Source: Acidimicrobiia bacterium
GTDB taxonomy: Bacteria; Actinomycetota; Acidimicrobiia; Acidimicrobiales; AC-14
Direction of reading: 5' to 3'
Length of the DNA stretch: 64,000 bases
Assembly: GCA_023264995.1 (NCBI GenBank)
Contig: JAHFUR010000003.1
Coordinates: forward strand, 124,001-188,000
The translations under genes were made by a program, and so were the position numbers. The notes beneath the pieces were generated by a model. That model worked only from the letters and a program-made list of their open reading frames with translations, did not search any database and was not told the DNA's origin. Of this stretch, positions 14,629 to 39,553 are shown piece by piece (the stretch's first letter is position 1; each line of letters starts with the position of its first letter).

Positions 14629-14709
14629 CTACTGGTGTGCGACTGGGCCAAACGCCACAAAGAAGCTCAGATTTCTTCCTGGAGTCCCGTGTCGCGCACC
14701 AAGTGGATG
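14629..14709. repeat. Nested palindrome, copy 1 (right half degenerate)
   Basis: The left half matches the other two copies: outer arm CTACTGGTGTGCG at 14629-14641 and inner arm AAACGCCACAAAGAA at 14650-14664. The expected right arms are decayed (ATTTCTTCCTGG, then TCGCGCACCAAG), although a short AAGAA/TTCTT stem remains. It lies in the leader of the minus-strand operon that starts at 14534. It is either a decayed element or one that now functions as a half-site. Confidence 0.8.
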
Positions 14710-16755: not shown

Positions 16756-16837
16756 CTACTGGTGTGCGGCGGAGCCAAAACGCCACAAGGATTTCTCAGA
16801 TTTCTTTGTGGCGTTTTCCGTTCTCGCACACCAGTAG
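16756..16837. repeat. Nested palindrome, copy 2 (perfect arms)
   Basis: The outer arms CTACTGGTGTGCG (16756-16768) and CGCACACCAGTAG (16825-16837) are perfectly complementary over 13 bp. Inside them AAAACGCCACAA (16777-16788) pairs with TTGTGGCGTTTT (16806-16817) over 12 bp. The stem can be extended in RNA through a G-U pair. The element is between the divergent DnaG-like primase gene and the Tad operon, 37 bases from the primase start. There is no T-run after the stem, so it does not look like a simple terminator. Confidence 0.9.
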
Positions 16838-17525
16838 GTAGGTAGCGGGGTCGCGCCCCGGTCGAGAAAGGAGGTTGAAACGGGCCATGGCCGGTGACGA
16901 CGAGATGGTGGCCGGCGCCGGCCAAGTCCGATATTCTGCAGACTGGCTCGCATCGCCGATCGGCGGAGCGACCGTCGCCTCGGTGACGGGCCCATCGGAG
17001 GACGGGGCGCCGACAAGTCCTCCCTCCCAACCAGTTGGGGCGCGCACGCTGTGGCGCGGGCGCCATCGGTTGTCGTCGACGTCGGCGGTGACTGATGGCG
17101 CTCGGCTGACGGCGCGGCGTGCTGTCGTCCCTTGCGTTCGGAGGATGCAGATGGGACGATCCGGGGGCGAGACGCCTATCCGGGAGGCGGCCAGTGAGCG
17201 GACTGAGCGGGCGGACATCCGAAGTGGTGAGCTCCCGGGCGTAACCGTGCGGCAGGTCACTTCCCCCACCGCCCCCGGGAAGGGGCGTGCCCGACCGGCG
17301 GCGCCGGCGAACGCGGCCCGCCGCGCATTCTCTGCGCAGCGTGGTGGCACTTCTCGATGCCGGCGACGTGGCCGGTGGCCGGTGGGCCAGCCAGCGCTGT
17401 CTGACGGCGCTCGGGATGGACACTGCAGTTCAGATGACGAACCCCAGGGAGGAGCGACAGTAGGGGTCAGAACGACCCCGACCTCGCGCAACGGGCTAGG
17501 CCCACCGTCTTAGGAGGTCGACGAC
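16838..17525. other. Long leader before the Tad operon; one weak reading frame
   Basis: Nearly 700 bases precede cpaB. A plus-strand frame from ATG 16887 to 17513, with a GAAAGGAGG sequence about a dozen bases before the ATG, could encode a roughly 208-residue arginine-, serine- and proline-rich product starting MAGDDEMVAGAGQVRYSADW. Its third positions are much less G/C-biased than those of the flanking genes and no domain is visible, so I do not call it a gene. The region more likely contains the Tad operon promoter and an untranslated leader. Confidence 0.4.
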
Positions 17526-18245
17526 GTGGCAACGACGGCCCCGCCCGCGGCGGTTTCGCCGCCGACGGCGACAGCTCGCCCGCTGCCCAAGCGGCGAGGA
17601 AGAAGCAAGGTCCCTACCCCTCTATGGGTCGCGGTGGTCGCCGGCGTGCTCGCCATGCTGGCCTTCCTGGTGGCGACGGGCGAGAGCGGGGGCAGACAGG
17701 TGGCAGTCGCCGCTCGGGACCTGGCGGCCGGTGAGCAGCTGTCGCCCGGCGACTTCCGCTACATCAATGCCCGGCTGCCCGACGCCACGCTGAATGCGAT
17801 GTTGCGCCCCGCCGACGTCGGCGCCATCTCGGGCCGGGTGACGACCCACGCCATCACCGCGGGGGAGCCGGTCACCAAGGCCGACGTTGCCGCCGCCGCG
17901 GCGCCCAGCCAGCAGCGGGCGATGAGCATCCCGATCGAGCCCTCCCATGCCGTCAGCGGCAGCCTCCAGCGGGGCGACGTGGTCGACGTGGTGGACAGCT
18001 CGAGCGGGGAGTCCGTCTACGTGGTCACCGACGCCCGAGTGCTGGCGGCCGGCGCTCCCGAGGGAGGCAAAAGCCTCGCGGGGTCGCCGGGGAAGTACGC
18101 GGTGACGATCGCCGTGGACGAACGGTCCGCCCTCCGGGTGGCCCAAGCCATCACCGGCGGCAAGGTCGACGTCGTCCGGGCCACAGGGGCCCCGCCGGCG
18201 TTGCCGTCCCCGGCGCCGACCACGAGCACGACCGTTCGGAGGTGA
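17526..18245 (+). CDS. cpaB: CpaB/RcpC-like pilus assembly protein (SAF domain)
   Basis: Periplasmic or outer-face component of Tad-type pilus biogenesis. The 239-residue protein has a basic N-terminus, one membrane helix at about 36-52 (VPTPLWVAVVAGVLAMLAFL) and a SAF domain with the typical VAARDLAAGEQLSPGDF and ITAGEPVTKADV turns, followed by a Thr/Pro-rich tail. Start GTG 17526 is preceded by AGGAGG. It is the first gene of a long plus-strand operon and overlaps the next gene by four bases. Confidence 0.88.
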   Translation: MATTAPPAAVSPPTATARPLPKRRGRSKVPTPLWVAVVAGVLAMLAFLVATGESGGRQVAVAARDLAAGEQLSPGDFRYINARLPDATLNAMLRPADVGAISGRVTTHAITAGEPVTKADVAAAAAPSQQRAMSIPIEPSHAVSGSLQRGDVVDVVDSSSGESVYVVTDARVLAAGAPEGGKSLAGSPGKYAVTIAVDERSALRVAQAITGGKVDVVRATGAPPALPSPAPTTSTTVRR

Positions 18246-19402
18246 ACGGCTTGGTGCCCGTGGCCTTCGCGGCCAGTTCCCATCCGTGGCAGCAGCGGCT
18301 CAACCGCCACCTGCACGCCTACTCGACCGACGTGCAGGTGGTGGCCATCGTGGCCGACCCCGGGGACCTGTGGGAGAGCGAGTGGCGCGTGCTCGTCATC
18401 GACGCCGCCAGTCCATGGCTGACCACCGAGTTCTGCGAGGACATCCATCTGCGCTTCCGGGGGATCGTGGCCGTCTACGACCCCGGCGACGCCCGTCGCA
18501 AGCAGCGGGCCCTCGATGCGGGAGCAGACGTGCCGCTGGAGTGGGACGCCGAGCCGGCGGAGCTGGTGGCCACCGTGCACGCGGTGGCGGCCCGCTGGCC
18601 GGCCAGGGCGCGGGCCGCTGGCCGCCACCGCCCGCCTGCCCGGGCAGCCATCCCGCGCGGTGGCCCGGTCATCGCCGTCGGCGGCCCGTCAGGCACGCGC
18701 CCGGACCGAGTGGCGGTGGCGCTGGCCAGCGCCCTCGCCGGGGGGAAGGTGCCGGTGTGCGTGGTCGACGCCAACGAGGTTGACCCGTCTCTTGCGGTGC
18801 GGCTGGGGCTCCGTCCCCAGCCCAACATCGCCACCGCCGCTGCTCGGCCCACCACCATGCTCCCGGAGTTGGTGGCCGAGGATCTGCAGGAGGTGCCCGA
18901 TGCGGGGGTGTGGGCGCTGGCCGGGCTGGCGGACCCCGCCCAGTGGACCACGGTCACGGGCCAGGCGCTGCGGCGCACGCTGGAGACCCTCGCCGAGGCC
19001 CACGTGTACGTCGTGGCATTGCTGGGGCCCATCGTCGAGGACCAGCCCCGGTTCACCATGAGCCGCACCGCCGTCTCCATGGCCCGGGCCATCGTCGCCG
19101 TGGGAGAGGCCACGCCACCGGGCATCGCCGCTCTCACGGGGTGGATCGCCGACGCAGTACGGGCCACCGACGGCACCCCGGTCTACCCGGCGGCGGTCCA
19201 GTGGGACCTGTCGCGATCACAGCGCGCCGACGCGGCCGAGGCGCTGGCCAAGGTGGCGCGCCTGGCCCCCGGCCCGGGGACCGTCACGTTGCTGCCAGCA
19301 CCGAGCCGGCGCGACCGGGCCCGGTCCTGGGACGGGCGGGTGGCTCCTGAGCGCAAGCTGACGGCCGCCGCCCGGGAGTTGGCGGCGCAGGTGCGGACAT
19401 GA
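18242..19402 (+). CDS. cpaE: CpaE/TadZ-like protein with degenerate P-loop
   Basis: Predicted localisation or assembly factor of the Tad machine, which in the family is a receiver-like domain fused to a MinD/ParA ATPase. Of 386 residues, about 1-130 look like the receiver-like part (WRVLVIDAASPWL, RKQRALDAGADVPLEW), and the rest follows the ParA fold pattern (VPVCVVDANEVDPSLAVRLGL). The loop that should be the deviant Walker A reads VGGPSGTRPDRVAVALA and lacks both lysines, so ATP hydrolysis is doubtful. It overlaps cpaB and cpaF by four bases on each side. Confidence 0.78.
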   Translation: MNGLVPVAFAASSHPWQQRLNRHLHAYSTDVQVVAIVADPGDLWESEWRVLVIDAASPWLTTEFCEDIHLRFRGIVAVYDPGDARRKQRALDAGADVPLEWDAEPAELVATVHAVAARWPARARAAGRHRPPARAAIPRGGPVIAVGGPSGTRPDRVAVALASALAGGKVPVCVVDANEVDPSLAVRLGLRPQPNIATAAARPTTMLPELVAEDLQEVPDAGVWALAGLADPAQWTTVTGQALRRTLETLAEAHVYVVALLGPIVEDQPRFTMSRTAVSMARAIVAVGEATPPGIAALTGWIADAVRATDGTPVYPAAVQWDLSRSQRADAAEALAKVARLAPGPGTVTLLPAPSRRDRARSWDGRVAPERKLTAAARELAAQVRT

Positions 19403-20685
19403 CAGCGCCCGACGCTATGCCCGATCCCCTGGACCGTCTCTATGACGAGGTGGACGAGCTGCTGCTGGCCGAGAACATCAGCCCTCGCGACCGCGCCGGC
19501 GTGGAGCGCGTCGCCCTGCACGCCGTCGGCGACTACCAGACCAAGGCGGGGCGCGGGGTCCACTACCCGTTGGCCCACCCCGAGGTGACGGTGGCGGAGA
19601 TCGTCTCGGACGTGTGCGACTACGGGGTGCTCGGGTGGGTGTTCCGCCAGCCCGGTGTCGAGGACATCACCATCCGAGGCGCCCGGATCCGCTACTTCCA
19701 GCACGGCCGGTGGAAGGCGCCCACGCTGCCGACCACCGAGCGTCGGAACCGCCACGTCATCATGCAGCTGATCGCGGATGCCGGCGTGCCCCTCGACCAG
19801 GAGCACCCCGTCGTCGACCGCGTCCAGATCCTCGACGGCGCCGGACGCCTCGCCGCCGCCATTCCCCCCGTGGCCGCCGTGCTCGACGCCACCATCCGCC
19901 TCTACGTGGTGCGGGCGGTGTCGATGGATGACCTCGTGGAGTGGGACATGCTCTCCCAGCCCGCCGCGGAGCTCCTCAGCCTGGATCTCAGGGCCCGGGG
20001 GGCGGTGATCATCAGTGGGGAGACGGGGGCCGGCAAGACCACGGTGATGAGCGGCCTGCTGTCGCGCGTCGACGTGTCCATGCGCCCGCTGCTGGTGGAG
20101 GACTACCGGGAGATCGACTTCCACCACGACCTGGGGGGCTCGTTCCAGATCAAGCCCGGCCCGGTCGACGACCGGCCCGAACGCTCAATCGCCGGCCTCT
20201 TGCGGTTCATGCTCGGCCTGCGCCCCGACCTGGTGGCTGTGGGCGAGGTGCGGGGCCGGGAGGCGTGGGACCTGACGGGCGCCGCCGGCGTGGGGGCGGG
20301 CTTCATCGCCACCCTCCATGGGCCCGACGCCGAGCGGGCCCTGGAACGCCTGGCCCGCCTCAGCCGTGGCCACGCCGACCGCCCCGAGCCCGAGGCCATC
20401 AGGGAGACGTTCAGCGATCTGTTGCACTTCGTGGTGCACTGCGAGCGCGGTGTGTCGGTGGAGGGCAAGTACCTGCACCAGGTGACCGAGGTGCGGGCCG
20501 TCGTGCCGCCCGTCGACGCCAGCAGAGGTTTCACCTCCGACCTCATCTTCGAGCGACCGGACGGCCTCGGCACCCCCATGCGCTGGACCAAGCTCGAACC
20601 GCCGGCGCCCATCGTCGATCGCCTCGAGCGGCTGCTCCCGACCGGGGTCCACCTGCGAGACGTGCTCGGAGGTGCTCGGCTATGA
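19399..20685 (+). CDS. cpaF: CpaF/TadA secretion ATPase
   Basis: Cytoplasmic hexameric ATPase of the type II/IV secretion superfamily powering Tad pilus assembly. The 428 residues show the N-terminal helical domain (GVLGWVFRQPGVEDITI), Walker A GETGAGKTT at about 206-214, an Asp box (LLVEDYREIDF), Walker B in RPDLVAVGEVRGREAWD and the His box in GFIATLHGPDAERALERL. All catalytic motifs are intact, so this is the probable motor of the pilus system. It overlaps cpaE and tadB by four bases. Confidence 0.95.
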   Translation: MTAPDAMPDPLDRLYDEVDELLLAENISPRDRAGVERVALHAVGDYQTKAGRGVHYPLAHPEVTVAEIVSDVCDYGVLGWVFRQPGVEDITIRGARIRYFQHGRWKAPTLPTTERRNRHVIMQLIADAGVPLDQEHPVVDRVQILDGAGRLAAAIPPVAAVLDATIRLYVVRAVSMDDLVEWDMLSQPAAELLSLDLRARGAVIISGETGAGKTTVMSGLLSRVDVSMRPLLVEDYREIDFHHDLGGSFQIKPGPVDDRPERSIAGLLRFMLGLRPDLVAVGEVRGREAWDLTGAAGVGAGFIATLHGPDAERALERLARLSRGHADRPEPEAIRETFSDLLHFVVHCERGVSVEGKYLHQVTEVRAVVPPVDASRGFTSDLIFERPDGLGTPMRWTKLEPPAPIVDRLERLLPTGVHLRDVLGGARL

Positions 20686-21551
20686 GGCTGCTCGGGGCGA
20701 TGGCCGCCGGGGTCTGTGTGTTCATGGTCGTTGGCTGGCGCGGGGGCCACCTCGACCGGTTCAGCCTTGGTGGCCGGCGGCGCAACCATCTCTCCCGCGG
20801 GGCGTGGCTGGCCCAGGCCGGGCTGTCGGTCAGCCCGGCCCAGTTCGCCGCCGCCTCGGCGCTGAGCGGCCTGGCGGCCATGGCGCTGGCGTGGGCGGTG
20901 AGCGGCTCGCCGGCCATCGGCCTGGTGCCGGCCGTCGCCGCCGGTTTCGCCCCCCGCGCCTGGTACGCCAACCGCCGCAAGGCTCGCCTCCACGCCGTCA
21001 CCGAAGCCTGGCCCGATGGCATCCTCCATGTGCTGGGCGCCCTCCGCAGCGGCCTGTCGGTGCACGGCGCCACCGTGGACCTCACCATCTCGGGGCCGGA
21101 GGCCCTGCGCGAGGCGTTCGCCCACTATGAGGCGTGGGCCCGGGTGTCGAGCCCGGCGGCCGCCCTGGTCCGGGTGCGCGAGGAGCTGGCCGAGCCGGTG
21201 AGCGACAAGGCCATCGGAGTGCTGATCGAGGCCAACCGCCACGGCACCGAAGTGGCGCTGTCCATCCTGGCCGCACTGGCCGAGGACGTACGGGCCGACG
21301 AGCGGGTAAGCCAGCAGATCCGCCAGGCCCAGCATGAGCCTCGACTGACCGGGGCGATCGCCTTCGGCTTCCCGTGGCTGGCGCTGCTGTTCTCCTGTGC
21401 CGCCGCTCCCGAGGTGCGCAGCTATTACGCGACCGGCGCCGGCCACGTCGCCCTGGTGCTGGGCGCGGTGCTGTCGCTCTCCAACCTCGTGGTGATCCTG
21501 CGTCTGGCTCGGGAGGACCCCGAGCCCCGGGTGGTCGGAGAGGGGTGGTGA
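20682..21551 (+). CDS. tadB: TadB-like inner-membrane platform protein
   Basis: Type II secretion F-family (T2SSF) platform protein for pilus assembly. The ATG at 20682 overlaps the cpaF stop; it gives a 289-residue protein with two N-terminal membrane helices, a cytoplasmic four-helix bundle containing WPDGILHVLGALRSGLSVHG and the family sequence QIRQAQHEPRLTGAIAFGFP, and C-terminal helices (GHVALVLGAVLSLSNLVVIL). The layout and place before a second T2SSF gene identify it as TadB. Confidence 0.88.
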   Translation: MRLLGAMAAGVCVFMVVGWRGGHLDRFSLGGRRRNHLSRGAWLAQAGLSVSPAQFAAASALSGLAAMALAWAVSGSPAIGLVPAVAAGFAPRAWYANRRKARLHAVTEAWPDGILHVLGALRSGLSVHGATVDLTISGPEALREAFAHYEAWARVSSPAAALVRVREELAEPVSDKAIGVLIEANRHGTEVALSILAALAEDVRADERVSQQIRQAQHEPRLTGAIAFGFPWLALLFSCAAAPEVRSYYATGAGHVALVLGAVLSLSNLVVILRLAREDPEPRVVGEGW

Positions 21552-22474
21552 CCGCGCAGCGCATCCTCCTCGCCCTGCCGGTGGGTGTGTTCACGGCATC
21601 GGTCGTGCTGCTCTTCTGGCGGGTGCCACGCCGGCTCGGCCCGCGCCTCGACCCCTACACCGTCGGCCAGCGCGTGCGCCTGGGCGAGCGGGCCGCGGAG
21701 CTCGAGGTGCTGCTTCCCCCGCCGGCGGCCAGCGCCTTCGCCCGCCTCTTCGGCCCCATGCTGCGCTCGGTCGAGGACCGGGTGAGCCGCTTCTTGGGCC
21801 ACCGCGACGAGGCCGCCACCGCCCGGGCGCTCGAGCACGCCGGCCTCGAGGATGTGACGCCCCGCCAGTTCCGGGACCAGCAGTTCGCCTTCGCCACCGG
21901 CGGCGTGCTCCTGGGGGTGGTGGCCGGTGTGCTGTCGGGGCCCCGCACAGGGCTGTTGATCGCCGCGTTCGCCGTACCCATCGGGTTCATGCGCAAGCGC
22001 AACGCCCTCGAGAGGCTGATCAAGCTGCGCCGGGAGAGGATGCGCGCCGAGCTGTGGCAGGTGAACGGGCTGCTGGCCGTCAAGCTGCACGCCTCGCTCA
22101 ACGTGCAGGCCGTCATCTCCGAGTTCGTGGCCGAGTCCCACGGCGAGATCGCCGACGAGCTGCGCCGCGTGCTCGTCGCCATCGAGACCGGGACCGCCGG
22201 CGAGCGGGCACTACGCGACCAGGCCGAGCGCACCGCCGAGCCGTTCGCCGCCCGGCTGTACCGCGTCCTCGCCGACGGCATCGAGAAGGGGGGCAACGTC
22301 TCCCTCGCCCTCCTGGACCAGGCCGCCGACATCCGACACGCCCATCGCGACGACCGCCTGCACGCGGCCACTGTGCGCACCGTGCTCATGGCCGGGCCGT
22401 CGGTGCTCATGGCCGCCGTCATGCTGCTGCTGGTCGGTGCTCCCGCCGTCAACCTCCTGTTCCACATCACCTGA
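21548..22474 (+). CDS. tadC: TadC-like inner-membrane platform protein
   Basis: Second T2SSF-family platform subunit, 308 residues, starting with GTG 21548 in a four-base overlap with tadB. The N-terminal helix is ILLALPVGVFTASVVLLF; central helices follow (GGVLLGVVAGVLSGPRTGLL), then the cytoplasmic bundle (ELWQVNGLLAVKLHASLNVQ, ALLDQAADIRHAHRDDRLHA) and a last helix (VLMAAVMLLLVGAPAVNLLF). It is expected to form a heteromeric platform with TadB at the base of the pilus. Confidence 0.88.
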   Translation: MTAQRILLALPVGVFTASVVLLFWRVPRRLGPRLDPYTVGQRVRLGERAAELEVLLPPPAASAFARLFGPMLRSVEDRVSRFLGHRDEAATARALEHAGLEDVTPRQFRDQQFAFATGGVLLGVVAGVLSGPRTGLLIAAFAVPIGFMRKRNALERLIKLRRERMRAELWQVNGLLAVKLHASLNVQAVISEFVAESHGEIADELRRVLVAIETGTAGERALRDQAERTAEPFAARLYRVLADGIEKGGNVSLALLDQAADIRHAHRDDRLHAATVRTVLMAGPSVLMAAVMLLLVGAPAVNLLFHIT

Positions 22475-22503
22475 AGCTGACAACTGAAAGAGAGGGTCCC
22501 AAA

Positions 22504-22725
22504 ATGAACGACACGCTGCTGAGGCTGTGGCTGGCCATCGACGGCCGTCTCAAGAGGTCCCAGGAGCCGCTCGGTCCCGAGGCCGGGCTGTCCCAGACCG
22601 TCGAGAACCTCCTGTGGGCCATGTTGGCCATCGCCGTGGTGGTGGCACTGATCCCCACTGCCCGAACCCGCGTGGTCGAGGCCGCCAACAACATCTTCGA
22701 CCAGGTGGTCGACGCCACCGGCTGA
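22504..22725 (+). CDS. Flp-type pilin candidate
   Basis: 73-residue protein starting MNDTLLRLWLAIDGRLKRSQ, with one membrane helix at about 38-57 (NLLWAMLAIAVVVALIPTAR) and a short polar C-terminus. Size, position after tadC and the single hydrophobic segment suggest the structural Flp pilin. The N-terminal leader of about 30 residues is longer than usual, and the classical GxxxxEY cleavage motif is replaced by GLSQTVENLLWA, so processing is uncertain. An AGAGAGGG site precedes the ATG. Confidence 0.72.
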   Translation: MNDTLLRLWLAIDGRLKRSQEPLGPEAGLSQTVENLLWAMLAIAVVVALIPTARTRVVEAANNIFDQVVDATG

Positions 22726-22738
22726 GAGACGAAAGGGC

Positions 22739-23113
22739 GTGGCTATCGACGAGCGAGGAAGCGCCACCGTGCAGAACGTGATCCTGATGCCGACCATGTT
22801 CCTGTTCGTGTGCATGGTGCTGATGCTGCTGCTGTGGGCGTACGCCCAGGGCGTCGTCCACGCTGCCGCCGATCAGGCGGTGCGGGCCGGGAGCCGCATC
22901 GACGTCGAGTCGGTGGCCACCTGCCAGGACCGGGCCGCCCAGACCCTGGCCAACGCTCTACCGGGCCTGGGCCCGGGCGACGTCAGCTGCTCGGAGTCGG
23001 CCGGGGTGGTCTCGGTCAGCATCCGGCTGCCCGTCACCGGCGGCATCCCGCCGTTCCGGTCCACCACCCTCACCGCCGCGGCCTCGGCCCGCAAAGAGGT
23101 GGCGCCGCAGTGA
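22739..23113 (+). CDS. TadE-like pseudopilin 1
   Basis: 124-residue TadE-type minor pilin. The N-terminal signature is DERGSATVQNVILMPTMFLF followed by a membrane helix, then an extracytoplasmic domain with two cysteines (VATCQDRAAQ and GDVSCSESAG) that may form a disulfide. It starts with GTG at 22739 and ends in a four-base overlap with the next TadE-like gene. In Tad systems such proteins initiate or decorate the pilus. Confidence 0.8.
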   Translation: MAIDERGSATVQNVILMPTMFLFVCMVLMLLLWAYAQGVVHAAADQAVRAGSRIDVESVATCQDRAAQTLANALPGLGPGDVSCSESAGVVSVSIRLPVTGGIPPFRSTTLTAAASARKEVAPQ

Positions 23114-23682
23114 TACTCGACTCGGGCACCCAGTGGCCGCCGGTGAGACCGGTTGCGCCGACCGAGCTGGCGGCCCGGCCCACACGGCGGCGGCGCGACT
23201 GTCGCTCCGGTCACATGGGGGCCGACCCGTCGTGGCGCTGGTGGTCACACGCCAGTGGGCTGATCCCCTTCCGCCGTCGTCGCAGTGACGACGGGTTCAC
23301 GACCATCGAGTTCCTGCTGTGCTTGGCGCTCATCATCTTCCCCGTCATCGGGCTGTCGGCCGCCGCCCTCGACTGGCCGGGGCGGCTGAACGCTGCCTCC
23401 GGTGCGGCCTACGAGGCGGCGCACTCGGTGGTGCACTCGCCCGCCGCCGACCCCGAGGAAGGACGGGCCCGCGCCGTGGAGGTGTGGATCAACCACGGCT
23501 ACGACGCCGGCGACATCGAGGTGGCCTTCGAGGGCGACCCAACGTCCCGTGGGGGCGTCTACACCTCGACGGTGACGGTGGTGCTGCCGGCCATCGTCCT
23601 CCCAGGCGTCGGCCGTATCGCCGGCGGCTCCGTCTCGCGCTCGCATTCCGAGCGGGTTCCCGACTTCGAGAGCATCCAGTGA
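23110..23682 (+). CDS. TadE-like pseudopilin 2
   Basis: 190-residue protein with a long, arginine-rich cytoplasmic leader of about 60 residues and then the TadE signature DDGFTTIEFLLCLALIIFPV with its membrane helix. The rest is an exported domain (GRARAVEVWINHGYDAGDIE). The GTG at 23110 overlaps the previous stop; an internal ATG at 23215 would shorten the leader and remains an alternative. A glutamate five residues into the hydrophobic signature, as in type IV pilins, is visible. Confidence 0.8.
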   Translation: MILDSGTQWPPVRPVAPTELAARPTRRRRDCRSGHMGADPSWRWWSHASGLIPFRRRRSDDGFTTIEFLLCLALIIFPVIGLSAAALDWPGRLNAASGAAYEAAHSVVHSPAADPEEGRARAVEVWINHGYDAGDIEVAFEGDPTSRGGVYTSTVTVVLPAIVLPGVGRIAGGSVSRSHSERVPDFESIQ

Positions 23683-24155
23683 CCGGTTCGCGCCGCTCGC
23701 GTGTTCGCCGTGGCCAAGGCGGTGCTGGCATGAGTCCGTTCAGGCGCGACGAGGCTGGCTTCTCCATGGTCATCTGGACGATGAGCCTGGCGGTGGTGTT
23801 GTTCGCAGTCATCTACCTGGTCACGGACACGTGGCGCCTGATCGCTGCCGATCGCGCCTTGTCCGCCGCCGTCGACGCCGCCGCAGCGGCCGGCGCCAAC
23901 GCCATCGACGAGGACTCCTACCGGGCCGGTGCCAACGTGCGCCTGGACCCGGCCCGGGCGGAGGCCCTGGCCCGCCAGTCCCTCGCCGAGCAGGACGATG
24001 CGGACCAGTTCGTTGGGGTAACCGTCTCAGCCGCCCCCGACCAGATCACCGTCGCGGCCGACCGCAGTGTTCAGCTGCTGCTGCTGCGCTTCATCGGCGA
24101 GTCCGGCCGACTGGTGCACGCTGAAGGACAGGGCACCCCAAGGACGTCGCCGTGA
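23679..24155 (+). CDS. TadG/TadE-like pilus protein 3
   Basis: 158-residue protein with the signature RRDEAGFSMVIWTMSLAVVL, a membrane helix, and an exported part beginning AADRALSAAVDAAAAAGANA, which resembles the TadG/RcpC-associated Flp assembly family in which such an alanine-rich amphipathic segment follows the anchor. GTG 23679 overlaps the preceding gene; ATG 23730 is an alternative start. Third of three consecutive pilin-like genes. Confidence 0.75.
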   Translation: MTGSRRSRVRRGQGGAGMSPFRRDEAGFSMVIWTMSLAVVLFAVIYLVTDTWRLIAADRALSAAVDAAAAAGANAIDEDSYRAGANVRLDPARAEALARQSLAEQDDADQFVGVTVSAAPDQITVAADRSVQLLLLRFIGESGRLVHAEGQGTPRTSP

Positions 24156-24231
24156 GCGGTCTTGGCGTCCCCTGCCTTATCTCGTCGGGCGACGATCGCC
24201 CGAGTGGTTCTATGAACAAGGAGGACCTGGA

Positions 24232-24900
24232 ATGAGTTGGCGACACAACGCCGGAAGCGACATCTCCACGGTTCCCAACGTCGGCGTACCGCCGACACCA
24301 CCTGGTGGGCCGGAGACGCCGACGCCGAGCTCGCGGCGCCACGTGGTCGTCGGCCTGATCATGGCCCTCATGGCTGTGGGCCTTGCAGCGGTGCTCATCC
24401 AGCGCGCCAACACCGACGAGGGAGCTGCCACCTTGCCGACGGCCGCCTCGCCGACGTCGGTCACGGCGCCGCCTGCCGACCAGCCGCCGGCGCTCATTAA
24501 CACCGGCGAGGACTGGGATGCCATCGTGCGCAGCATGGTCGCCTACAGCGACTGGCTGTATCTGCACCCGAAGCCCGAGCTGCTCGACACATACTCGCTG
24601 CCCTCGAACCCGAGCTATGCCGACACCAGGCTGGCGCTGACCAACCTGGCCACCAAGGGGTGGCGGTACGATCCGCCGCGGGTGGCGGCAAGGGTTGAGA
24701 TCGTGCGGCTCAACAGCCGCATCAACCCGACCGCAGCCGCCGTGTTCGTGCGCTTCGGTCCCGCCCCTCAGTACCGGGTGGTTGACCAGTCCGGCGCGGA
24801 GGTCGCCAACAAGCCAGCCACCGCGGTTGGCAACAGCGTCATCTGGACGCTGGCGCAGAAGAACGGTCGTTGGTACCTGGCCGACGTGGACGCTCTGTGA
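24232..24900 (+). CDS. Single-pass anchored protein of the Tad operon
   Basis: 222 residues: a proline-rich cytoplasmic leader, one membrane helix at about 40-60 (HVVVGLIMALMAVGLAAVLI), a Thr/Ala/Pro linker, and an outer domain with an alpha+beta look (MVAYSDWLYLHPKPELLDTY, WTLAQKNGRWYLADVDAL). The C-terminal pattern ending in NGRWYLADV is typical of NTF2-like/VirB8-like folds, but this is a fold-level guess. ATG 24232 has an AAGGAGG site. It ends in a four-base overlap with the following exported protein. Confidence 0.75.
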   Translation: MSWRHNAGSDISTVPNVGVPPTPPGGPETPTPSSRRHVVVGLIMALMAVGLAAVLIQRANTDEGAATLPTAASPTSVTAPPADQPPALINTGEDWDAIVRSMVAYSDWLYLHPKPELLDTYSLPSNPSYADTRLALTNLATKGWRYDPPRVAARVEIVRLNSRINPTAAAVFVRFGPAPQYRVVDQSGAEVANKPATAVGNSVIWTLAQKNGRWYLADVDAL

Positions 24901-25910
24901 GCCGCCGCCGTCACTTCACCGCTTCGGCCGGTGTCCTGCTCGTCCTGATGGCGGTCTCGCCGGTGAGCGGCCAGCAGTCGCCTCCGGTCACGGCAGTCGG
25001 CAATATCGGATCAGACGTCGGCGTCGGGCTCGGCGCCCCGGGAGGGCCAGGCGGCCCGGGCAGCCAGCCGACGTCGGCCGGGAACGCCGGCGCTAGTAGC
25101 AACGGCAACACCGGCGTGATACCGACGGCATCGGGCGGAGGTGGATCCAGCAGTGGCGGCTCAAGTGGTGGATCGTCAGGGCCTCCGCTTACATGGGTGC
25201 GGACGTACCCCAATGTCGGCAGCCTGGGTGGTGAGCAGGCCGTCAGCGCCGGAGCGTTCTGCCTCGACGACGCCGGCAACCGGGGCGTCAGCTACGTCGA
25301 CAATCTAACCAACACCCAGACCGGCGAAGTGGTGAGCACCCGTAGCGGCTGTGCCACGTCGGCCACGCCGGCACCCAACGCCCAAAGCAACGGGTCCACG
25401 ACGGCGGCCCAACCCCCGCCGACGCCGGCCGAAATCTGGGCACGGACGCCGATCGCCACCCCGACCTTCGGAGTCAACCCCGACCAGGGCTTGACCGGAT
25501 TGGCCACCTGGCTGTGGGACCCGAACGGAGGCGCTGCGGTCAATGCCACGGTGCAGCTGCGCGGCTACTCGGCGCAAGCCTCGGCCACGCCGGTGCGCTG
25601 GGAATGGACGATGGGCGGCCGGCCGGGTGACACCGAGTCGCGCCAGAACCCGCCCTACCGGGTGGTGAGCACTCAGCCGGGTCGGGCGTGGGCGCCGGGC
25701 GGGCGGGGAGGTCCGCCGGCCGCCACCTACATGTACGAGACGAAGGGCGACTACACGCTGACTCTGACCGTCACCTGGACTGGCTCCTACACCTACACCG
25801 ACCCTGCCGGTGCAGTGCAGAGCGTCGACCTGGGCACGACCACGCGGACGGCAACCAGGAACTACCAGGTGGCCGAGCTGCGGCCCGTGCTGACGGCGAC
25901 GGGCCCATGA
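24897..25910 (+). CDS. Secreted PKD-like protein
   Basis: 337 residues with a signal peptide (RRRHFTASAGVLLVLMAVSP, cleavage near SGQQ), a Gly/Ser-rich low-complexity stretch at about 35-95, and a C-terminal Ig/PKD-like domain recognised by WEWTMGGRPGD and TYMYETKGDYTLTLTVTW. Two cysteines (AFCLDD and SGCATS) could pair. It is probably an extracellular adhesin or pilus-associated protein made with the Tad machinery; its substrate is unknown. Confidence 0.75.
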   Translation: MSRRRHFTASAGVLLVLMAVSPVSGQQSPPVTAVGNIGSDVGVGLGAPGGPGGPGSQPTSAGNAGASSNGNTGVIPTASGGGGSSSGGSSGGSSGPPLTWVRTYPNVGSLGGEQAVSAGAFCLDDAGNRGVSYVDNLTNTQTGEVVSTRSGCATSATPAPNAQSNGSTTAAQPPPTPAEIWARTPIATPTFGVNPDQGLTGLATWLWDPNGGAAVNATVQLRGYSAQASATPVRWEWTMGGRPGDTESRQNPPYRVVSTQPGRAWAPGGRGGPPAATYMYETKGDYTLTLTVTWTGSYTYTDPAGAVQSVDLGTTTRTATRNYQVAELRPVLTATGP

Positions 25911-25941
25911 CCTACGGGACGGCCCCAGAGGGAGAGTACGC

Positions 25942-28900
25942 ATGAGACGGCTGCGCTCCGTGGCGTCGCTTATCGCCTTGGTGGGCTTCGAGGCTGCTGC
26001 CATGCTTATCCTCCGCCGGGCCGGCCAGGTCGAGGCGTGGCGGGTCGACTGGCAGCACTTCAGTCGGTGGCTCGACGCGGCGCCGATCGAGGACGTGGTG
26101 GCGGGGCTGGCCCGATCGGCCGGACTGGTCATCGTCGGATGGCTCTGCGTGTCCACGACGCTCTACCTCCTGGCCACAGTGTGCCGTGCGCCACGTCTCA
26201 TCCGCGCCGCCGGGCTGTTCACGCTGCCGGGAGTGCGCCGCATGGTGGAGGGCACCGTCGCCGTGTCCATGATGGCCACGGCCTTGGCCAGCCGCGTGGG
26301 GCCGGCGATGGCCCAGGAGCCGGCCGGGGGCTGGGCGAGAAACCCGGTGGTGGCGGCTGCCTCGCCGGCGCCCCCAGCCTTCACTTCCGCCGTCCGCATC
26401 GAGCTACCCCCCGACGTCGCCCACGCGGTCGAGCCCACCGCCACCGAAGCGGGCCGGTGGGTGGTCGCTCCCGGGGACAACTTCTGGGACATAGCGGCCG
26501 CCGACGTAGCCCACCGGCGGGGGGTGCCCGTCGAGACGCTGCGGGCGGCCGACATCGCGGACCGTTGGCGAGAGATCATCGAGGCCAGCGAGTCCGCCGG
26601 CGGGGTGCCGTCGGGTGACGCGAACCTGATCTACCCGGGAGCCGTCCAGGTCCTGCCGCCCTCCCGGGCCGTGGCTGCCGCGCCAGCTGCCTCTTTACCG
26701 ACGGCCCCTCCTGCGGTGGCGGCCCCGGCTCCCGCCGGCACATCGGCTGCGCTCACACCGCGACCACCACCGCCGCCGCCTGCGACTGCCGCTCCGCCCG
26801 CCAGCGTGGCCACACCTACCCCCACGCCGGCCGTGGTCGACGGGTCATCCACATCGGGCGTCGTGGAGTCTTCGGCGTCAGCGCCGACCACACCCCCGTC
26901 GATGCCGGCGACCACCACGGCGGCAACCACTACCGCCGCCTCTCCAGGAGGCGCGGTCTCGCCCTCCACGGCGGTTACCGCCACGACGTCGCCGGCTGCG
27001 CAGACTCCGCAGGTACATGAGCGATCAGGTGCTGCAAGGCAGCGCGTGCCGCTCGCCCAGGCCGCAGTTGGGGTGTCCAGCCTGCTCGGGGGGATCTTCG
27101 TGTGGCGGATGCGCCGAGAGGGCATGGCCGCCCAGCGCCGGCGGCGGCGGGGCCGAGACCTCGTGTCCCAGCCGGATCCCGTGGCGGAACCGGTGGAGCG
27201 CCGGGTGCGCGCCATCGCCGAGGTGGAGACCGTGCACTGGGTCGACGCCACCCTCCGCTACGCCAGCGCAGTCTTGGCCGAGGCCGGCGGCGGGGAGGTG
27301 GAGGGCATCCTATGCGTGCGCCCGGGCCAGCTCGGCATGGAGCTGGTCGTAGACCCTCCCGCTCCGCCGGTCGGACGCTTCGACTCTACCGACGACGGCC
27401 GCACCTGGACGCTGGATCCCGACTTGGAGCTGAGAGAGCTGCAGGACTTGGCCTGGGGCCAAGTCCTGGTGCCGGCGCTGTGCAGTGTCGGCAGCACGCC
27501 CGACGGGCCCGTGCTCGTCGACCTGGAGCAGGCCGGCGTGCTCTCCGTGGAGGGCGACCCAGCCCGAGTCGAGGGGTTCCTGGCTGGCGCCGCCCTGGAG
27601 ATGGCCAGCGCCCCGTGGGCCAACGACACCGCCGTATACCTCCTGGGCGGCGATGGGCGCCTGGCTGGGCGGGACCTGGTGGAGGCGATCGACGACGTGG
27701 CTGGCTTCATTGCCGACCTGGACCAGCTGACCAGCCTGGTGACCGACGAGGAGCTGGTCGCAGCGCCGTCGACGCTGGCCGCCCGGGTGGCCCCGGGCAA
27801 CGCCGAGGGGTGGTTTCCCGCGGTGGTGGTAGCCCATCCCGGCACCGACATCGATGCGTTGTCGCCGCTGGCGGCCCGGGCCCGGCCCCGCCGCTCGGGC
27901 CTCGCCCTTGTCGGGCCGGGGCCCCTGCCCGGCGCCACCTGGCGGCTGGTACTCGAGCCCGACGGCGGAGCAGTGCTTGAGCCGCTCGGCCTCGAGCTCG
28001 ATTCCCATATCGACGCCGACGTGGTCGCTGCCTTGACCGGTCGCATTGCGGCCCGGGCTGACCAGGCAGGCCTGGCCCCGGTCATCGACCTGGTCCCCGA
28101 GCAGGCTGCTGCAGTCCCCACCCCTGCGCCGACCGATGAGGTCGACGAGGAGCCGATGGAGGGCGAGGTGCGCTTCCTGGGGCCAGTGGAGATCACCTGG
28201 GCCGCCCACGTCGACGAGGCCGGCCCTGACCGGGCCATCCTGCTGGCCGCCGCGGCCGCTTTCCTGGGAGCACACTCCGACCACCCCGTACCCGCCCCAC
28301 GCCTGCAAGAGGCGCTGTGGCCGCTGGGCCTCGACGACAGCGACGTGCGGGCCGGCTCGGTCAAGGACGGCACCCTCCGCTCCACCATGTCGCGCCTACG
28401 CACCGCCCTGGGCAAGGACTCATTGGGCCGCAACCATCTCCCGGCAGCGAAGAACGGCACCTACACGCTCGGGCCCCGTTTCGGCTGCGACTGGAGCCGG
28501 TTCCAGGCGCTGGTCGCCGCCGCCCAAACGGGGTCCTCCGCGGAGGCGATCGAGTTGCTGCGCGAGGCGCTGGGGCTGATCCGGGGCCGCCCGTTCGAGG
28601 ACGCGCCGCCGATCTACTTCAGCTGGGCGGACGATTCGCCCCTCGTGTCGGACATCGAGAAGGCGGTGGCTATGGCAGCGGAGGAGCTCGGCGAGCGGGC
28701 GCTGGAGGCGGGCGATCCCGAGCTGGCGGAGTGGGCCGCCAGCCAGGGACTGCGGGTGGTGCCGGTACGCGAGGACCTGTACCGGGTGCGCTTCCAGGCC
28801 GCCTTCGACGCCGGCGACCACGACGGCCTCGACGCCGCCCACACCGAGGCGGTCCGGGCGGTCCGGACCCACATCGACCCGACTGAGGCCCTCCAGGATG

Positions 28901-29001
28901 AGACCGAGCGCCTCTACCAGCGGCTCAAGCGGGCCTGCCGGTCCCGGGACTCTCAGGGCGATGCGGAGGGGGCGCGACGTGCACGAACGACGACGGGCTG
29001 A
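25942..29001 (+). CDS. Membrane-embedded LysM plus BTAD (SARP-like) protein
   Basis: 1019-residue multidomain protein. Two N-terminal membrane helices (about 7-25 and 59-80) precede an extracytoplasmic LysM-type module at about 170-230 (RWVVAPGDNFWDIAAADV, ANLIYPGAVQVLP). A 130-residue Pro/Thr/Ala linker follows, then a third helix at about 368-387 (LAQAAVGVSSLLGGIFVW), a large cytoplasmic middle region, and at about 741-1010 a winged-helix-like plus BTAD domain (VRFLGPVEITW, LRSTMSRLRTALGKDSLGRN, ERALEAGDPELAEWAASQGL). The layout suggests a cell-wall sensor connected to a SARP-type output, but DNA binding by a membrane-tethered protein is unproven. It overlaps the start of the next HTH gene. 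Confidence 0.85.
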   Translation: MRRLRSVASLIALVGFEAAAMLILRRAGQVEAWRVDWQHFSRWLDAAPIEDVVAGLARSAGLVIVGWLCVSTTLYLLATVCRAPRLIRAAGLFTLPGVRRMVEGTVAVSMMATALASRVGPAMAQEPAGGWARNPVVAAASPAPPAFTSAVRIELPPDVAHAVEPTATEAGRWVVAPGDNFWDIAAADVAHRRGVPVETLRAADIADRWREIIEASESAGGVPSGDANLIYPGAVQVLPPSRAVAAAPAASLPTAPPAVAAPAPAGTSAALTPRPPPPPPATAAPPASVATPTPTPAVVDGSSTSGVVESSASAPTTPPSMPATTTAATTTAASPGGAVSPSTAVTATTSPAAQTPQVHERSGAARQRVPLAQAAVGVSSLLGGIFVWRMRREGMAAQRRRRRGRDLVSQPDPVAEPVERRVRAIAEVETVHWVDATLRYASAVLAEAGGGEVEGILCVRPGQLGMELVVDPPAPPVGRFDSTDDGRTWTLDPDLELRELQDLAWGQVLVPALCSVGSTPDGPVLVDLEQAGVLSVEGDPARVEGFLAGAALEMASAPWANDTAVYLLGGDGRLAGRDLVEAIDDVAGFIADLDQLTSLVTDEELVAAPSTLAARVAPGNAEGWFPAVVVAHPGTDIDALSPLAARARPRRSGLALVGPGPLPGATWRLVLEPDGGAVLEPLGLELDSHIDADVVAALTGRIAARADQAGLAPVIDLVPEQAAAVPTPAPTDEVDEEPMEGEVRFLGPVEITWAAHVDEAGPDRAILLAAAAAFLGAHSDHPVPAPRLQEALWPLGLDDSDVRAGSVKDGTLRSTMSRLRTALGKDSLGRNHLPAAKNGTYTLGPRFGCDWSRFQALVAAAQTGSSAEAIELLREALGLIRGRPFEDAPPIYFSWADDSPLVSDIEKAVAMAAEELGERALEAGDPELAEWAASQGLRVVPVREDLYRVRFQAAFDAGDHDGLDAAHTEAVRAVRTHIDPTEALQDETERLYQRLKRACRSRDSQGDAEGARRARTTTG

Positions 29002-29728
29002 GGAGTCGGCCCCTACTGAGGCGGACCGGGTCTCCGCCGTCCCGGGCCGCCCGCAGGGGCCGGCTTCTCAACCCGTCGTGGTCAGCGACTCAGCCGGTGA
29101 ACCGCCGGCACCGGCCAAGGTGCGGGACGCGAACCAAGTGGTGGCCTACAACTTCCGAGCCGCCCGCAAACTGCGGGGCTGGACCCAGGAGGAGGCGGCC
29201 CGCCGGCTTGCGCCCTACCTCGGCCAGAAGCTTCCGAAGGCATCGATTTCCGGAATCGAGCGTTCCTTTGACCGCGAGCGCCGGCGGTCCTTCGACGCCC
29301 AGGATCTCGTAGCCTTCTCCCTCGCCTTCGACCTGCCCGTGGTGTGGTTCCTGCTGCCGCCGCCGAGTGCCGCTGACTATGAACTGGCGGCGGCCAGCCG
29401 GTCGCTGCAGCTACTCGCCACTCTGCTTATGGGTCGCGACGACCAGCTCGACCACATCAAGGGGCGGATGCGGGAGCTACGGGCGGCCGACCCCGGATCA
29501 TCAGGGGATGTGCTGGCCGAGGCCGGCGGGTTCCCGCCGGAGCTGAGCTGGGAGCAGTTCCAACGCAGCCGGGAGAAGGCGCTGTTCGCGCTCGTCGAGG
29601 AGGAGGCCTCCGACCTCGAACGACTGATGGGCGATCTGCGGCGGGTGATGGTCCGCTTTGACGATCTGTCCCTGCGTGCGCACTATGCCTCGTACCCACG
29701 GACCGGCTTGGGCTCCTCGCATGACTGA
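28979..29728 (+). CDS. XRE-family HTH protein
   Basis: 249 residues when started at GTG 28979, preceded by GGAGGGGG at 28965-28972; an in-frame ATG at 28961 is possible. After a disordered 50-residue leader there is an XRE-type helix-turn-helix at about 60-120 (NFRAARKLRGWTQEEAARRL, SISGIERSFDRERRRSFDAQ), then a helical C-terminal half with a possible coiled coil (KALFALVEEEASDLERLMGD). It is probably the local regulator of the conjugation genes. The gene overlaps its upstream neighbour by 23 bases and the next gene by eight. Confidence 0.85.
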   Translation: MHERRRAEESAPTEADRVSAVPGRPQGPASQPVVVSDSAGEPPAPAKVRDANQVVAYNFRAARKLRGWTQEEAARRLAPYLGQKLPKASISGIERSFDRERRRSFDAQDLVAFSLAFDLPVVWFLLPPPSAADYELAAASRSLQLLATLLMGRDDQLDHIKGRMRELRAADPGSSGDVLAEAGGFPPELSWEQFQRSREKALFALVEEEASDLERLMGDLRRVMVRFDDLSLRAHYASYPRTGLGSSHD

Positions 29729-30452: not shown

Positions 30453-30528
30453 AGGGTGCAGCCTCGGGTGGCCGGGGCTGGACGCGAGCTGCCCGGCCGA
30501 CACCGACCTGTTCGCAAGGCGCTGAAAG

Positions 30529-30924
30529 TCAGGCGGCTCCGCCGGGTTCCAGGCCGGGAAGAGTCGGCTGGGTGACTGTGCCAGCTTGACACCGAGGTCG
30601 GCGCAGTGGCGCCACTCCAGCGGACTGAATAGCGATCGGCGCCGACGGTCCGGCGGCCCTCGAGGCGGCGTCGCAGAGCAGGCTGACGGCGGCCACGATC
30701 TCCTCGTCGGTGGCGTCGTCGCCCCCGCGGACGATGAGCCGTACCGCCCAGCCCAAGCGGCCGGGCTGGGCGGGCAGGGTGGCCAGCTCCGTCCGGGCCC
30801 GGCCGAGCTCGTCGACGTCGCCCTCGCCGGTGGCCACCAGGCCCCGGTACCAACGGACCAGAGCCACGCTGGCCCGCCCCACGGCGCCGAGGTCGACCAC
30901 GACCGCGTCGGCCGGCCCGCTCAC
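30529..30924 (-). CDS. Small hypothetical protein, last gene of the hydrolase operon
   Basis: 131-residue product from GTG 30924, which overlaps the stop of the upstream gene (GTGA). It starts MSGPADAVVVDLGAVGRASV and is probably a soluble helical protein (ELGRARTELATLPAQPGRLG, IVAAVSLLCDAASRA) with a short C-terminal tail ending TLPGLEPGG. No family is recognised. It is convergent with the zinc-ribbon gene, 76 bases apart. The role is presumably tied to the peptidoglycan hydrolase/T4SS set. Confidence 0.68.
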   Translation of the reverse strand: MSGPADAVVVDLGAVGRASVALVRWYRGLVATGEGDVDELGRARTELATLPAQPGRLGWAVRLIVRGGDDATDEEIVAAVSLLCDAASRAAGPSAPIAIQSAGVAPLRRPRCQAGTVTQPTLPGLEPGGAA

Positions 30925-31487
30925 GCCGGGAGCTCCCAGGAGTGCAGCGCCACCCACTGGGCACCGCGCCGGGCGAAGTAGAACACCGTGTTCGCGTCGC
31001 TGATCGCCGGGCCGCCGTCGAGGCGGGTGGCCGACCAGACGACGGCCACCTGGACAACGTCGGGATGGCCGGTGCTGGAGGCGCCGGCGGCATGGACGAC
31101 AACGTCGGCGCAACAGGGCTGGGCCCGGCCGCTGCCCCAGTAGCCGTAGAAGGCGTCGCGCCCGTCTCCGGTGGCGTCGGCCCGCAGCAGGGCGGCGCCG
31201 AGGCGGCTGGTCTCGGTGGCCACCGCCGGTCCCAGGTTGGAGCGGGCTGGGTCACTGAGCTGGGCCCAGTAGCCGGCCTTGGTGGGGGCGCCCTCGCCGA
31301 TGGCAGCCCAGGGAGGCGAGGCGACCGCGGATGTCGTCGCCGAGGTGGTGGACGACGGTGCTGGTACCGCGGAGGGCCCCCTGGCGCTGGTTGCGGTGAG
31401 CGGCCGGGTGGTCCCGGGGGGCCGAAGGAGGGCCCAGGCGCCGACGAAGGCGCCGACTACGGCAACAGCGGCCAAGGCCCGCCTCAC
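30921..31487 (-). CDS. Exported or membrane-anchored hypothetical protein
   Basis: 188 residues with an N-terminal signal anchor (MRRALAAVAVVGAFVGAWAL), a Thr/Ser/Pro linker, and an exported domain containing a vicinal cysteine pair (AQPCCADVVVH) and a final strand-rich part (VFYFARRGAQWVALHSWEL). The general plan resembles the anchored T4SS accessory proteins of Gram-positive conjugation, but I could not match a family. It overlaps the hydrolase gene upstream and the small gene downstream by four bases each. Confidence 0.75.
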   Translation of the reverse strand: MRRALAAVAVVGAFVGAWALLRPPGTTRPLTATSARGPSAVPAPSSTTSATTSAVASPPWAAIGEGAPTKAGYWAQLSDPARSNLGPAVATETSRLGAALLRADATGDGRDAFYGYWGSGRAQPCCADVVVHAAGASSTGHPDVVQVAVVWSATRLDGGPAISDANTVFYFARRGAQWVALHSWELPA

Positions 31488-32608
31488 GGCCGCTCCTGGG
31501 GGCCTGTGCCCGCCAGCAGGATCGCGGTCTGAAGGTGCTTGCGGCAGCGACGGTGCCGGCCGGTTCGGACAAGCTGGAGGCCGAAGCTAATCAGCACCAG
31601 CCGCCCGTCGCCAAGGAACCCGATCCCGACAAGGGCCGAGGCTCGCCATCCGACGTGAAGGTGGTCAGCGTGATCGGAGTCGCTGAAGGCGCCCGGGTAC
31701 CGCTCCAGATCCGGCCACGGTGAGCCGAGCTCGTCGGGGCGCAGGGGAGGAGCCGATCCCAGGCTCTGCTCGGCCACGGCCCGGGCCCCGTCGGCCGAGG
31801 CGCTCACGTCGACACCGTCGACGGCGTAGATGTCCACCGCCCGGCCGTAGTAGTGGTTGGAGACGCGATCGGTGCCGGCCACGAACTGGTTGTGGCCGGT
31901 CTTGAACACGCTGACCGAGATGCGGTGGTTGACCACCAGGGCGGCCAGGTAGTCGACCACCCGCTGGTCGACGACGCCGGCGAGCAGGTCGGCCCGGGCC
32001 CGCTCGGTCAGGATCAGGTTGGGGTTGTCGGCCAGTGCCGCCGCGCTGGTGGCGCTGGCCGCGGTCAGGCTGGCGGCGTCGGAGTAGCGGGCGGCCCGGG
32101 CCAGCACGTCGTCGATGTAGGCCTCGGAGTGGTTGTAGTGCCAGATGGCTCTGCGGAGCTTGTCGGGTTCGCCGACGCCGTTGGCGCACAAGTAGTTGGC
32201 GGCGCCGAAGACGGCGTCGGTGGGGTCGTAGCGGTCCTTGTCGCCGTCGCCATCGCCGTCGACGCCGTAGGCGTCCCAGGTGCCCTGAAGGAACTGCATG
32301 GGCCCGCCGGCGCCGGCGAAGTTCTCCCCGCTGTGGACCCCAGGCAGGGTGGAGCGGCCGTGGTCGGTCTCCACCGAGCCGATGCCGGCCAGCACCGCCC
32401 ACGACAGGCCCGGGCAGGTCTCGGCCGCCTTGCGGTAGATGGCCAGCATCTCGGGAGGGATGTCGGCCACGGCGTAAACGCTGGGGTTGCCGGCGGGGGC
32501 CCCGGCCGCCTTCGACGCCCCCAACATCATCCCGCCGATGGCGAGCACCGCGAGCAGGACGGCGATCAGCGCGCCGCCCACCCCCAGGGCGACCGCAGCG
32601 GGCTTCAT
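31484..32608 (-). CDS. Two-domain peptidoglycan hydrolase (SLT plus M15-like)
   Basis: Likely opens the cell wall for the T4SS. 374 residues: an N-terminal membrane helix at about 5-30; a soluble lytic transglycosylase (SLT_2-like) domain with the catalytic glutamate in GIGSVETDHGRSTLPG and the motif GAGGPMQFLQGTWDAYGVDG; and a C-terminal part resembling M15/VanY-type peptidases, with NHYYGRAVDIYAVDG (His and Asp) and DHADHLHVGW supplying putative zinc ligands. The ATG at 32608 is chosen; an upstream extension would run through the nested palindrome. It is divergent from the T4SS operon and leads a three-gene minus-strand operon. The last 50 residues are hydrophobic and basic, with no clear homology. 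Confidence 0.87.
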   Translation of the reverse strand: MKPAAVALGVGGALIAVLLAVLAIGGMMLGASKAAGAPAGNPSVYAVADIPPEMLAIYRKAAETCPGLSWAVLAGIGSVETDHGRSTLPGVHSGENFAGAGGPMQFLQGTWDAYGVDGDGDGDKDRYDPTDAVFGAANYLCANGVGEPDKLRRAIWHYNHSEAYIDDVLARAARYSDAASLTAASATSAAALADNPNLILTERARADLLAGVVDQRVVDYLAALVVNHRISVSVFKTGHNQFVAGTDRVSNHYYGRAVDIYAVDGVDVSASADGARAVAEQSLGSAPPLRPDELGSPWPDLERYPGAFSDSDHADHLHVGWRASALVGIGFLGDGRLVLISFGLQLVRTGRHRRCRKHLQTAILLAGTGPQERP

Positions 32609-32694
32609 GGCGTGGGGCCTGGTCGGCGCGGCCAGGTCGGGGCAACGACGAGCCCGACGCCGACCAGTTGGCGAGAAACGTGCCCCACATCCCT

Positions 32695-32775
32695 CGACTG
32701 GTGTGCGGCCGGGCGAAACGCCACAAAGAAACTTCAGAAATCTTTGTGGCGTTTCCCGTTTTCGCACACCAGTCG
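32695..32775. repeat. Nested palindrome, copy 3 (perfect arms)
   Basis: Outer arms CGACTGGTGTGCG (32695-32707) and CGCACACCAGTCG (32763-32775) are perfect 13-bp complements; inner arms AAACGCCACAAAGA (32716-32729) and TCTTTGTGGCGTTT (32741-32754) pair over 14 bp. Compared with copy 2, the second base of the outer stem changes from T-A to G-C on both arms, a compensatory change. It lies between the divergent hydrolase gene (87 bases away) and the T4SS pilin gene (44 bases away), where it could act on both. Confidence 0.92.
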
Positions 32776-32818: not shown

Positions 32819-33154
32819 ATGCTGGTGCTGCAACTGGTGGCCAACGCCAACCCGCGCCTGGCCGGGGCCGTGTTCGGCTTCCTCGCCCAGGTCGAGCTCA
32901 ACCCCACCCCCGACGGCATGCCGGGGGCCAGCTTCGCCCAGACGCTGATCAACTGGACCGGCCAGATCGCCCTGTGGGGCAGCCTGGTGTCGATCCTCAT
33001 CGGCGCCGCGATCTACGGCGTGTCCCAGCACGTGGGCAACACCTACGGCGCATCCAAAGGCCGGCTCCTAGCCCTGGCGGGGGCCATCGGCGCCGGCCTG
33101 ACCGGGTTGGCGCCGACGATCGTCAACCTGATCAGCAAAGCCGCAGCGGCCTAG
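32819..33154 (+). CDS. VirB2-like T4SS pilin or pore protein
   Basis: 111 residues with two membrane helices: TLINWTGQIALWGSLVSILI at about 41-62 and LLALAGAIGAGLTGLAPTIV at about 82-104, separated by a short polar loop. This is the arrangement of VirB2/TrbC-type subunits and of small membrane proteins heading Gram-positive T4SS operons. The ATG at 32819 follows a CAGGAGGG site. It is the first gene of the T4SS operon. Confidence 0.75.
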   Translation: MLVLQLVANANPRLAGAVFGFLAQVELNPTPDGMPGASFAQTLINWTGQIALWGSLVSILIGAAIYGVSQHVGNTYGASKGRLLALAGAIGAGLTGLAPTIVNLISKAAAA

Positions 33155-39551: not shown

Positions 39552-39553
39552 CG

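Follow-up and report, generated by a model that had tools for sequence, protein, structure and literature searches.

A directional two-box half-element before transfer and replication genes of an acidimicrobial conjugative element, probably their shared promoter or operator

Introduction

The 64,000-nucleotide stretch of Acidimicrobiia DNA analyzed here (the window) holds a conjugative element. Three palindromic elements lie upstream of its operons, at positions 14629 to 14709, 16756 to 16837, and 32695 to 32775 of the window. An earlier note on this DNA had located them and had argued for selection on a stem, either in RNA or as a cruciform. Is it the pairing of the arms that is conserved, or is it their sequence, and what do the elements do for the genes beside them?

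Results

Gene content of the conjugative element. The leftward prim-pol operon starts with a gene of no assigned function (13980 to 14534, minus strand; taken from the ORF list, with no Pfam match at the default cutoff) and contains the Prim-Pol gene (13000 to 13983, minus strand; PF09250, E = 4e-48). The gene for a DnaG-like primase with a Zn ribbon and a Toprim domain, both assigned by Pfam, lies at 14827 to 16719 on the minus strand. On the plus strand, a Tad-like pilus operon (16887 to 29001) has Pfam matches to CpaB/RcpC, the TadA ATPase, T2SSF, and others. Its last gene (25942 to 29001, plus strand) encodes a LysM-BTAD-type protein, identified by a BTAD match, with an EmbR/SARP-like winged helix at the C terminus. 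A gene for an XRE-family protein with a weak HTH_3 match (28979 to 29728, plus strand) and a transglycosylase gene (31484 to 32608, minus strand; Pfam SLT_2) follow. The type IV secretion system (T4SS) operon begins with a small hydrophobic pilin-like protein (32819 to 33154, plus strand) and includes the coupling protein TraG/VirD4 (38699 to 41557, plus strand; PF02534, E = 2e-35). One gene of this operon contains a 27-bp tandem repeat (34960 to 35301). Genes for serine recombinases lie at 10966 and 45168. An inverted pair of 54-nt sequences with many GGGGGTCAGTTTTC (44150 to 44203 and 49080 to 49133, with about 5 kb between) may represent the ends of an insertion element.

The three palindromic elements. 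All three elements, to none of which we assign a strand, are present where the earlier note had placed them. In the copies at 16756 to 16837 and 32695 to 32775, the outer arms pair perfectly over 13 bp, as claimed, and the inner arms over 12 to 15 bp rather than 12 to 14 bp. The copy at 14629 to 14709 has an intact left half, which faces the gene, and a decayed right half. The predicted fold of both intact copies is strong (-59 and -69 kcal/mol, about 110 nt each), and long hairpins are predicted from either strand. An Rfam search with the elements gave no match. No T-run and no terminator-like site, meaning a GC hairpin followed by a T-run, was found in the two intergenic regions, in agreement with the note's view that these are not ordinary terminators. 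Nor was a sigma-70 consensus promoter found otherwise in the two regions scanned. The genomic context needs one correction: the operon rightward of the 16756 copy is Tad-pilus-like, with Pfam matches to CpaB, TadA, and T2SSF, and it is the 14629 copy that has the prim-pol operon to its left.

The repeated unit is a half-element. What is repeated is a directional sequence of 31 bases, TTTGTGGCGTTT-N8-CGCACACCAGT, which we call a half-element. We aligned 16 half-sites from two genomes, that of the window (G000) and its sister (G001), in gene orientation. They have in common TTTGTGGCGTTT, a variable spacer of 8 to 9 bp, and CGCACACCAGT, and the boxes TGTGGCGTT and CACACCAGT are nearly invariant across them. 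In spaced form, the core boxes of the window's own element read TTGTGGCG-N11-CGCACACCAG. The two conserved boxes are about 20 bp apart, or two helical turns. The outer box is proximal to the gene in every half-site, 33 to 97 nt from the start codon. The exact two-box pattern occurred once, against an expectation of 0 in shuffled sequence.

In the window, the half-element facing the prim-pol operon (14631 to 14661, minus strand; inner box TTTGTGGCG, outer box CGCACACCAGT) is 97 nt from the ATG at 14534. The element at 16756 comprises one half-element 38 nt from the start of the DnaG-like gene at 16719 (16758 to 16789, minus strand) and one about 52 nt from the ATG of the Tad-pilus operon at 16887 (16805 to 16835, plus strand). 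Likewise, the element at 32695 comprises one 88 nt from the transglycosylase ATG at 32608 (32697 to 32727, minus strand) and one 45 nt from the first ATG of the T4SS operon at 32819 (32743 to 32773, plus strand). Judged from the sequence, the nested palindrome is therefore a pair of half-elements that stand back to back in the space separating two divergent genes. Before the prim-pol operon and the MobF relaxase genes on other contigs, the gene-facing half alone is kept; the half that faces away from such one-sided gene starts is decayed or absent, and for the prim-pol element this holds in both genomes.

Further copies and a shared gene set. In the window's genome, contigs C79 and C33 each have a half-copy immediately upstream of a MobF relaxase gene. 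All three elements recur at the same places in the sister genome (MAG Acidimicrobiia bacterium nzgw82), which also has half-sites at relaxase genes and a second copy at a T4SS. Its copy of the prim-pol element retains the left half with two changes, and the right half is decayed; the relaxase on its contig C165 is without a half-site. Among the 60 genomes searched, there was one match besides the sister genome, weak and partial, in G028. Pattern scans of viral contigs and other genomes gave chance matches only, the sister genome excepted.

In one family of conjugative elements, half-elements thus precede the genes for the T4SS, the Tad pilus, the transglycosylase, DnaG, Prim-Pol, and the relaxase, and within a single element the same motif is upstream of several transfer and replication operons. 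Copies upstream of homologous genes in related elements, by which the earlier note had proposed to judge its case, were therefore found. Its suggestion that the elements could coregulate replication and transfer also held up, in that the copies appear to be cis-elements common to both kinds of operon.

Two other features were seen in these regions. On contig C78 of the window's genome (L010:7885-7975), a degenerate copy is upstream of a small HTH-like gene that looks excisionase-like by eye. A probable oriT is located just upstream of the MobF relaxase on C79 (L009:7250-7400), where a perfect 11- to 12-bp hairpin, GCAGGTTCCGC-TTT-GCGGAACCTGC, and variants of it are close to an ACACA/GAGACAC stretch. 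Homologous relaxase upstream regions (L011, L138, L139, L145, L146, and L159) have it as well, and its arms are changed across the relatives.

Sequence rather than pairing is conserved. We examined covariation in the five intact copies, three of which are from the sister genome. Of the 27 pairs, 23 never vary, 1 has a double change, and 3 have one-sided wobble changes. As many double-change pairs were present in 354 of 500 shuffles, and the covariation score was reached by 60 of 500. Compensatory changes are therefore not above background. Both changes that had suggested a stem, the double one from T-A to G-C and the one that gives a G-U pair, do exist, but at one position each. Arm agreement within copies was somewhat better than expected (10 mismatches versus 13.0, reached by 3.3% of permutations), with one position driving the difference; this may reflect correction between the arms of a palindrome. 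Selection on a stem is unsupported, because one-sided genes have conserved half-elements with nothing to pair with and because the arms do not covary but keep the same sequence. Therefore, it is the sequence, not the pairing, that is conserved, and each palindrome can be read as two control elements.

Related elements have lineage-specific motifs. Homologs of the T4SS first gene were found in 136 of the 397 genomes of the order. The oriented upstream regions of several of them contain nested palindromes of unrelated sequence, and the same genes in more distant elements of the order have in common another two-box motif, one specific to the lineage. We compared the upstream regions of T4SS-pilin and relaxase genes within genomes. 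The similarity scores were 64, 57, 43, and 42 in G000/G001, 35 in G307, and 29 in G074 and G048. Between genomes, the mean was 21.4 (standard deviation, 4.5); the score of 29 was also reached by some between-genome pairs, and the support in those two genomes comes from box register and position. A half-element shared by T4SS and relaxase genes is clear in G000, G001, and G307 and is recognized by box register and position in G074, G048, and G036.

The motif TGTCCCA-N15-GGCCCACAG in G145/G307 occurs between T4SS and SSB genes, between Tad and transglycosylase genes, and at the relaxase gene, giving five sites in G145 (two pairs and the relaxase site). G048 also has five sites, of the motif GTCGCGT-N13/14-CGCGCTTATC: a pair between the T4SS and transglycosylase genes and one each at the relaxase gene, the prim-pol operon, and a serine recombinase gene. 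TCGCGCC-N13/14-CGTCCCTGG precedes T4SS and relaxase genes in G036, with a weaker site at the transglycosylase gene, and CGTCGCG-N17-GCACGTGGATG precedes T4SS and relaxase genes in G074. In G006, TTGCCGGCAAG-N3-ACCGGCAA is found at DnaG and relaxase genes. A GGGGCCTAC or GGCTTACAGGGG box is upstream of T4SS and other genes in G011, G014, and G213. Box scans for G011/G014 and G343 with two mismatches were near background, and the sites counted are exact or near-exact ones before start codons. Conservation at homologous genes therefore extends from the sister genome to lineage-specific versions, although these motifs were defined from the very loci that they explain, and the lineages are partly nonindependent (G145 and G307 have one motif, as do G011 and G014).

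A cross-scan of the lineage motifs was near diagonal: they recur in their own elements and rarely in others. The exception is the G145 motif, which is loose and had 10 matches in reversed controls when all elements were counted together. In lineages with two clear boxes, the box starts are 20 to 24 bp apart, except in G006 (about 14 bp). The outer box ends 6 to 7 nt ahead of an ATG in G048 and only a few nucleotides ahead of one in G011/G213. We infer that an outer box so close to the ATG would sit where a leaderless transcript has its -10 element.

Three relatives have an SSB gene, not a transglycosylase gene, diverging from the T4SS operon (L185:18262-18918, L119:3428-4066, and L187:17649-18362). 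A conserved protein of about 230 residues with no assigned function is encoded at L189:9481-10170, L194:9478-10284, L132:12782-13318, L201:6311-6976, and L205:2974-3591; in G011 and G213, its start codon is immediately preceded by the lineage motif.

Candidate trans-acting factors. The best candidate for the factor that acts on the half-elements is perhaps the LysM-BTAD winged-helix protein of the Tad operon, a tentative choice. BTAD was found in the window protein; LysM was found, at the cutoff, in its homologs and not in the window copy. The C-terminal part, with its domain at 28132 to 28938, matches the EmbR structure 2fez in a profile comparison (E = 9e-8), with weaker matches to OmpR-type winged helices. 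Such a long BTAD protein inside the Tad-pilus operon is conserved in related elements: we scanned 17 element sets and found it in 11, and those that lack it have partial coverage or fragmentary contigs. A structure prediction of the BTAD part was poor (pLDDT, 51) and was set aside. The protein is possibly a membrane-anchored transcription activator. It is a lead rather than a result, because SARP sites are normally direct repeats. The alternatives are a specialized sigma factor or another regulator. A PF04542 search found no sigma factor gene in the window or in the stretches examined on G048:C6, G036:C31, and G145:C13; a sigma factor of a type that PF04542 does not detect, or one supplied by the host, could still serve.

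The XRE protein, which the earlier note had put forward as the binder, is a weak candidate, because related elements with such motifs do not conserve it. It was absent from every scanned element stretch except those of the window's own and the sister genome, and the G145, G036, and G048 genomes have no homolog at E values up to 1e-5.

Discussion

We suggest that the directional half-element is probably a dedicated promoter or an activator-dependent promoter-operator common to transfer and replication genes, with boxes specific to each lineage. The boxes are unlike a sigma-A promoter. From their spacing and their distance to start codons, the inner box would correspond to -35 and the outer box to -10, and the AT-rich center could act as an UP-like stretch. 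A factor encoded by the element would then switch the half-elements and thereby turn on the whole set of donor functions at once. Within each lineage, box sequence and factor would coevolve, and specificity would change coherently.

Several other explanations were weighed. That the stem itself is selected, as an RNA leader hairpin or a cruciform regulating the flanking operons, would suit the perfect arms, the strong predicted fold, the one double change, and the three one-sided changes, all of which give G-U on the plus strand. It is nevertheless very unlikely, given the shuffles and the conserved partnerless halves, and a transcript of the whole palindrome would have to begin inside the leader of the divergent gene. 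We also consider it unlikely that the elements are the operator of the XRE protein: this HTH protein is encoded within the element and conserved in the sister genome, but the elements of G145, G036, and G048 bear the same kind of motif without a homolog. If the elements were instead Frpo/ssi-like promoters or priming sites in single-stranded DNA, they would work on the transferred strand in the recipient, where intact palindromes could refold into duplex boxes. Long hairpins do precede the primase gene, and in G145, G307, and G036 they are beside an SSB gene; Frpo is known to occur upstream of SSB genes (PMC11541004). This reading is quite improbable, since the TTGACA/TATAAT boxes described there are lacking, half-elements that do not fold are found at relaxase, prim-pol, and recombinase genes, and most of the genes serve donor functions.

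A recombination site is a highly improbable reading. Boxes of 12 to 13 bp with a variable 8-bp spacer resemble a tyrosine recombinase core, and the serine recombinases of the element could bring a res site to mind, but the two boxes do not form an inverted repeat with one another and are always placed just before genes in a single orientation. A mobile, MITE-like repeat with terminal inverted repeats would likewise be palindromic and present in several copies per genome. It is extremely unlikely, because the copies are at orthologous promoters in two genomes with fixed orientation and start-codon distance, half copies exist, and the sequence is replaced lineage by lineage at the same places. 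Finally, a more elaborate scheme would have a two-box conjugation promoter and a membrane-anchored LysM-BTAD winged-helix regulator replaced wholesale in each lineage, together with palindromes that fold in the transferred strand and fire primase and SSB in the recipient. If true, each element would have a private on-switch for transfer; we think this combination decidedly unlikely.

The preferred reading, a shared conjugation promoter or operator, is ordinary in kind and has a clear comparative signature. It defines a regulon of T4SS, Tad pilus, relaxase, primases, and transglycosylase, to which relatives add SSB and a recombinase, and it offers a handle on the T4SS/MobF elements of an actinobacterial group whose conjugation control is little studied. 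Because at least six lineages, each with other box sequences, are available for comparing the motif and the gene set, the factor should be findable by its covariation with the boxes.

Among known systems, the KorA/KorB regulon of RK2 (IncP-1) has a short operator repeated at the promoters of replication and transfer operons, which element-encoded regulators coordinate (PMC4889941, PMC11790492). The window's element is similar in having one short cis-sequence at the promoters of both kinds of operon. It differs in that the element is two-box and directional and that no KorA was seen; a ParB/KorB-like gene is near the relaxase in some of these elements only. SARP/EmbR activator systems are matched by the encoded EmbR-like protein with winged helix and BTAD, yet this protein is far longer and in relatives includes a LysM region, and its would-be sites are two dissimilar boxes, whereas SARP proteins normally bind direct heptamer repeats in an 11-bp register (PMC10972967). 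Long hairpins before conjugation genes recall Frpo/ssi of F-type plasmids, but there is no -35/-10 consensus and the unit here appears to need no hairpin. With respect to ECF sigma promoters, the boxes are longer than the usual hexamers and the examined stretches of long-contig elements encode no sigma factor, but the likeness extends to two boxes with -35/-10-like spacing, regulon-wide use, and a specificity that differs by lineage.
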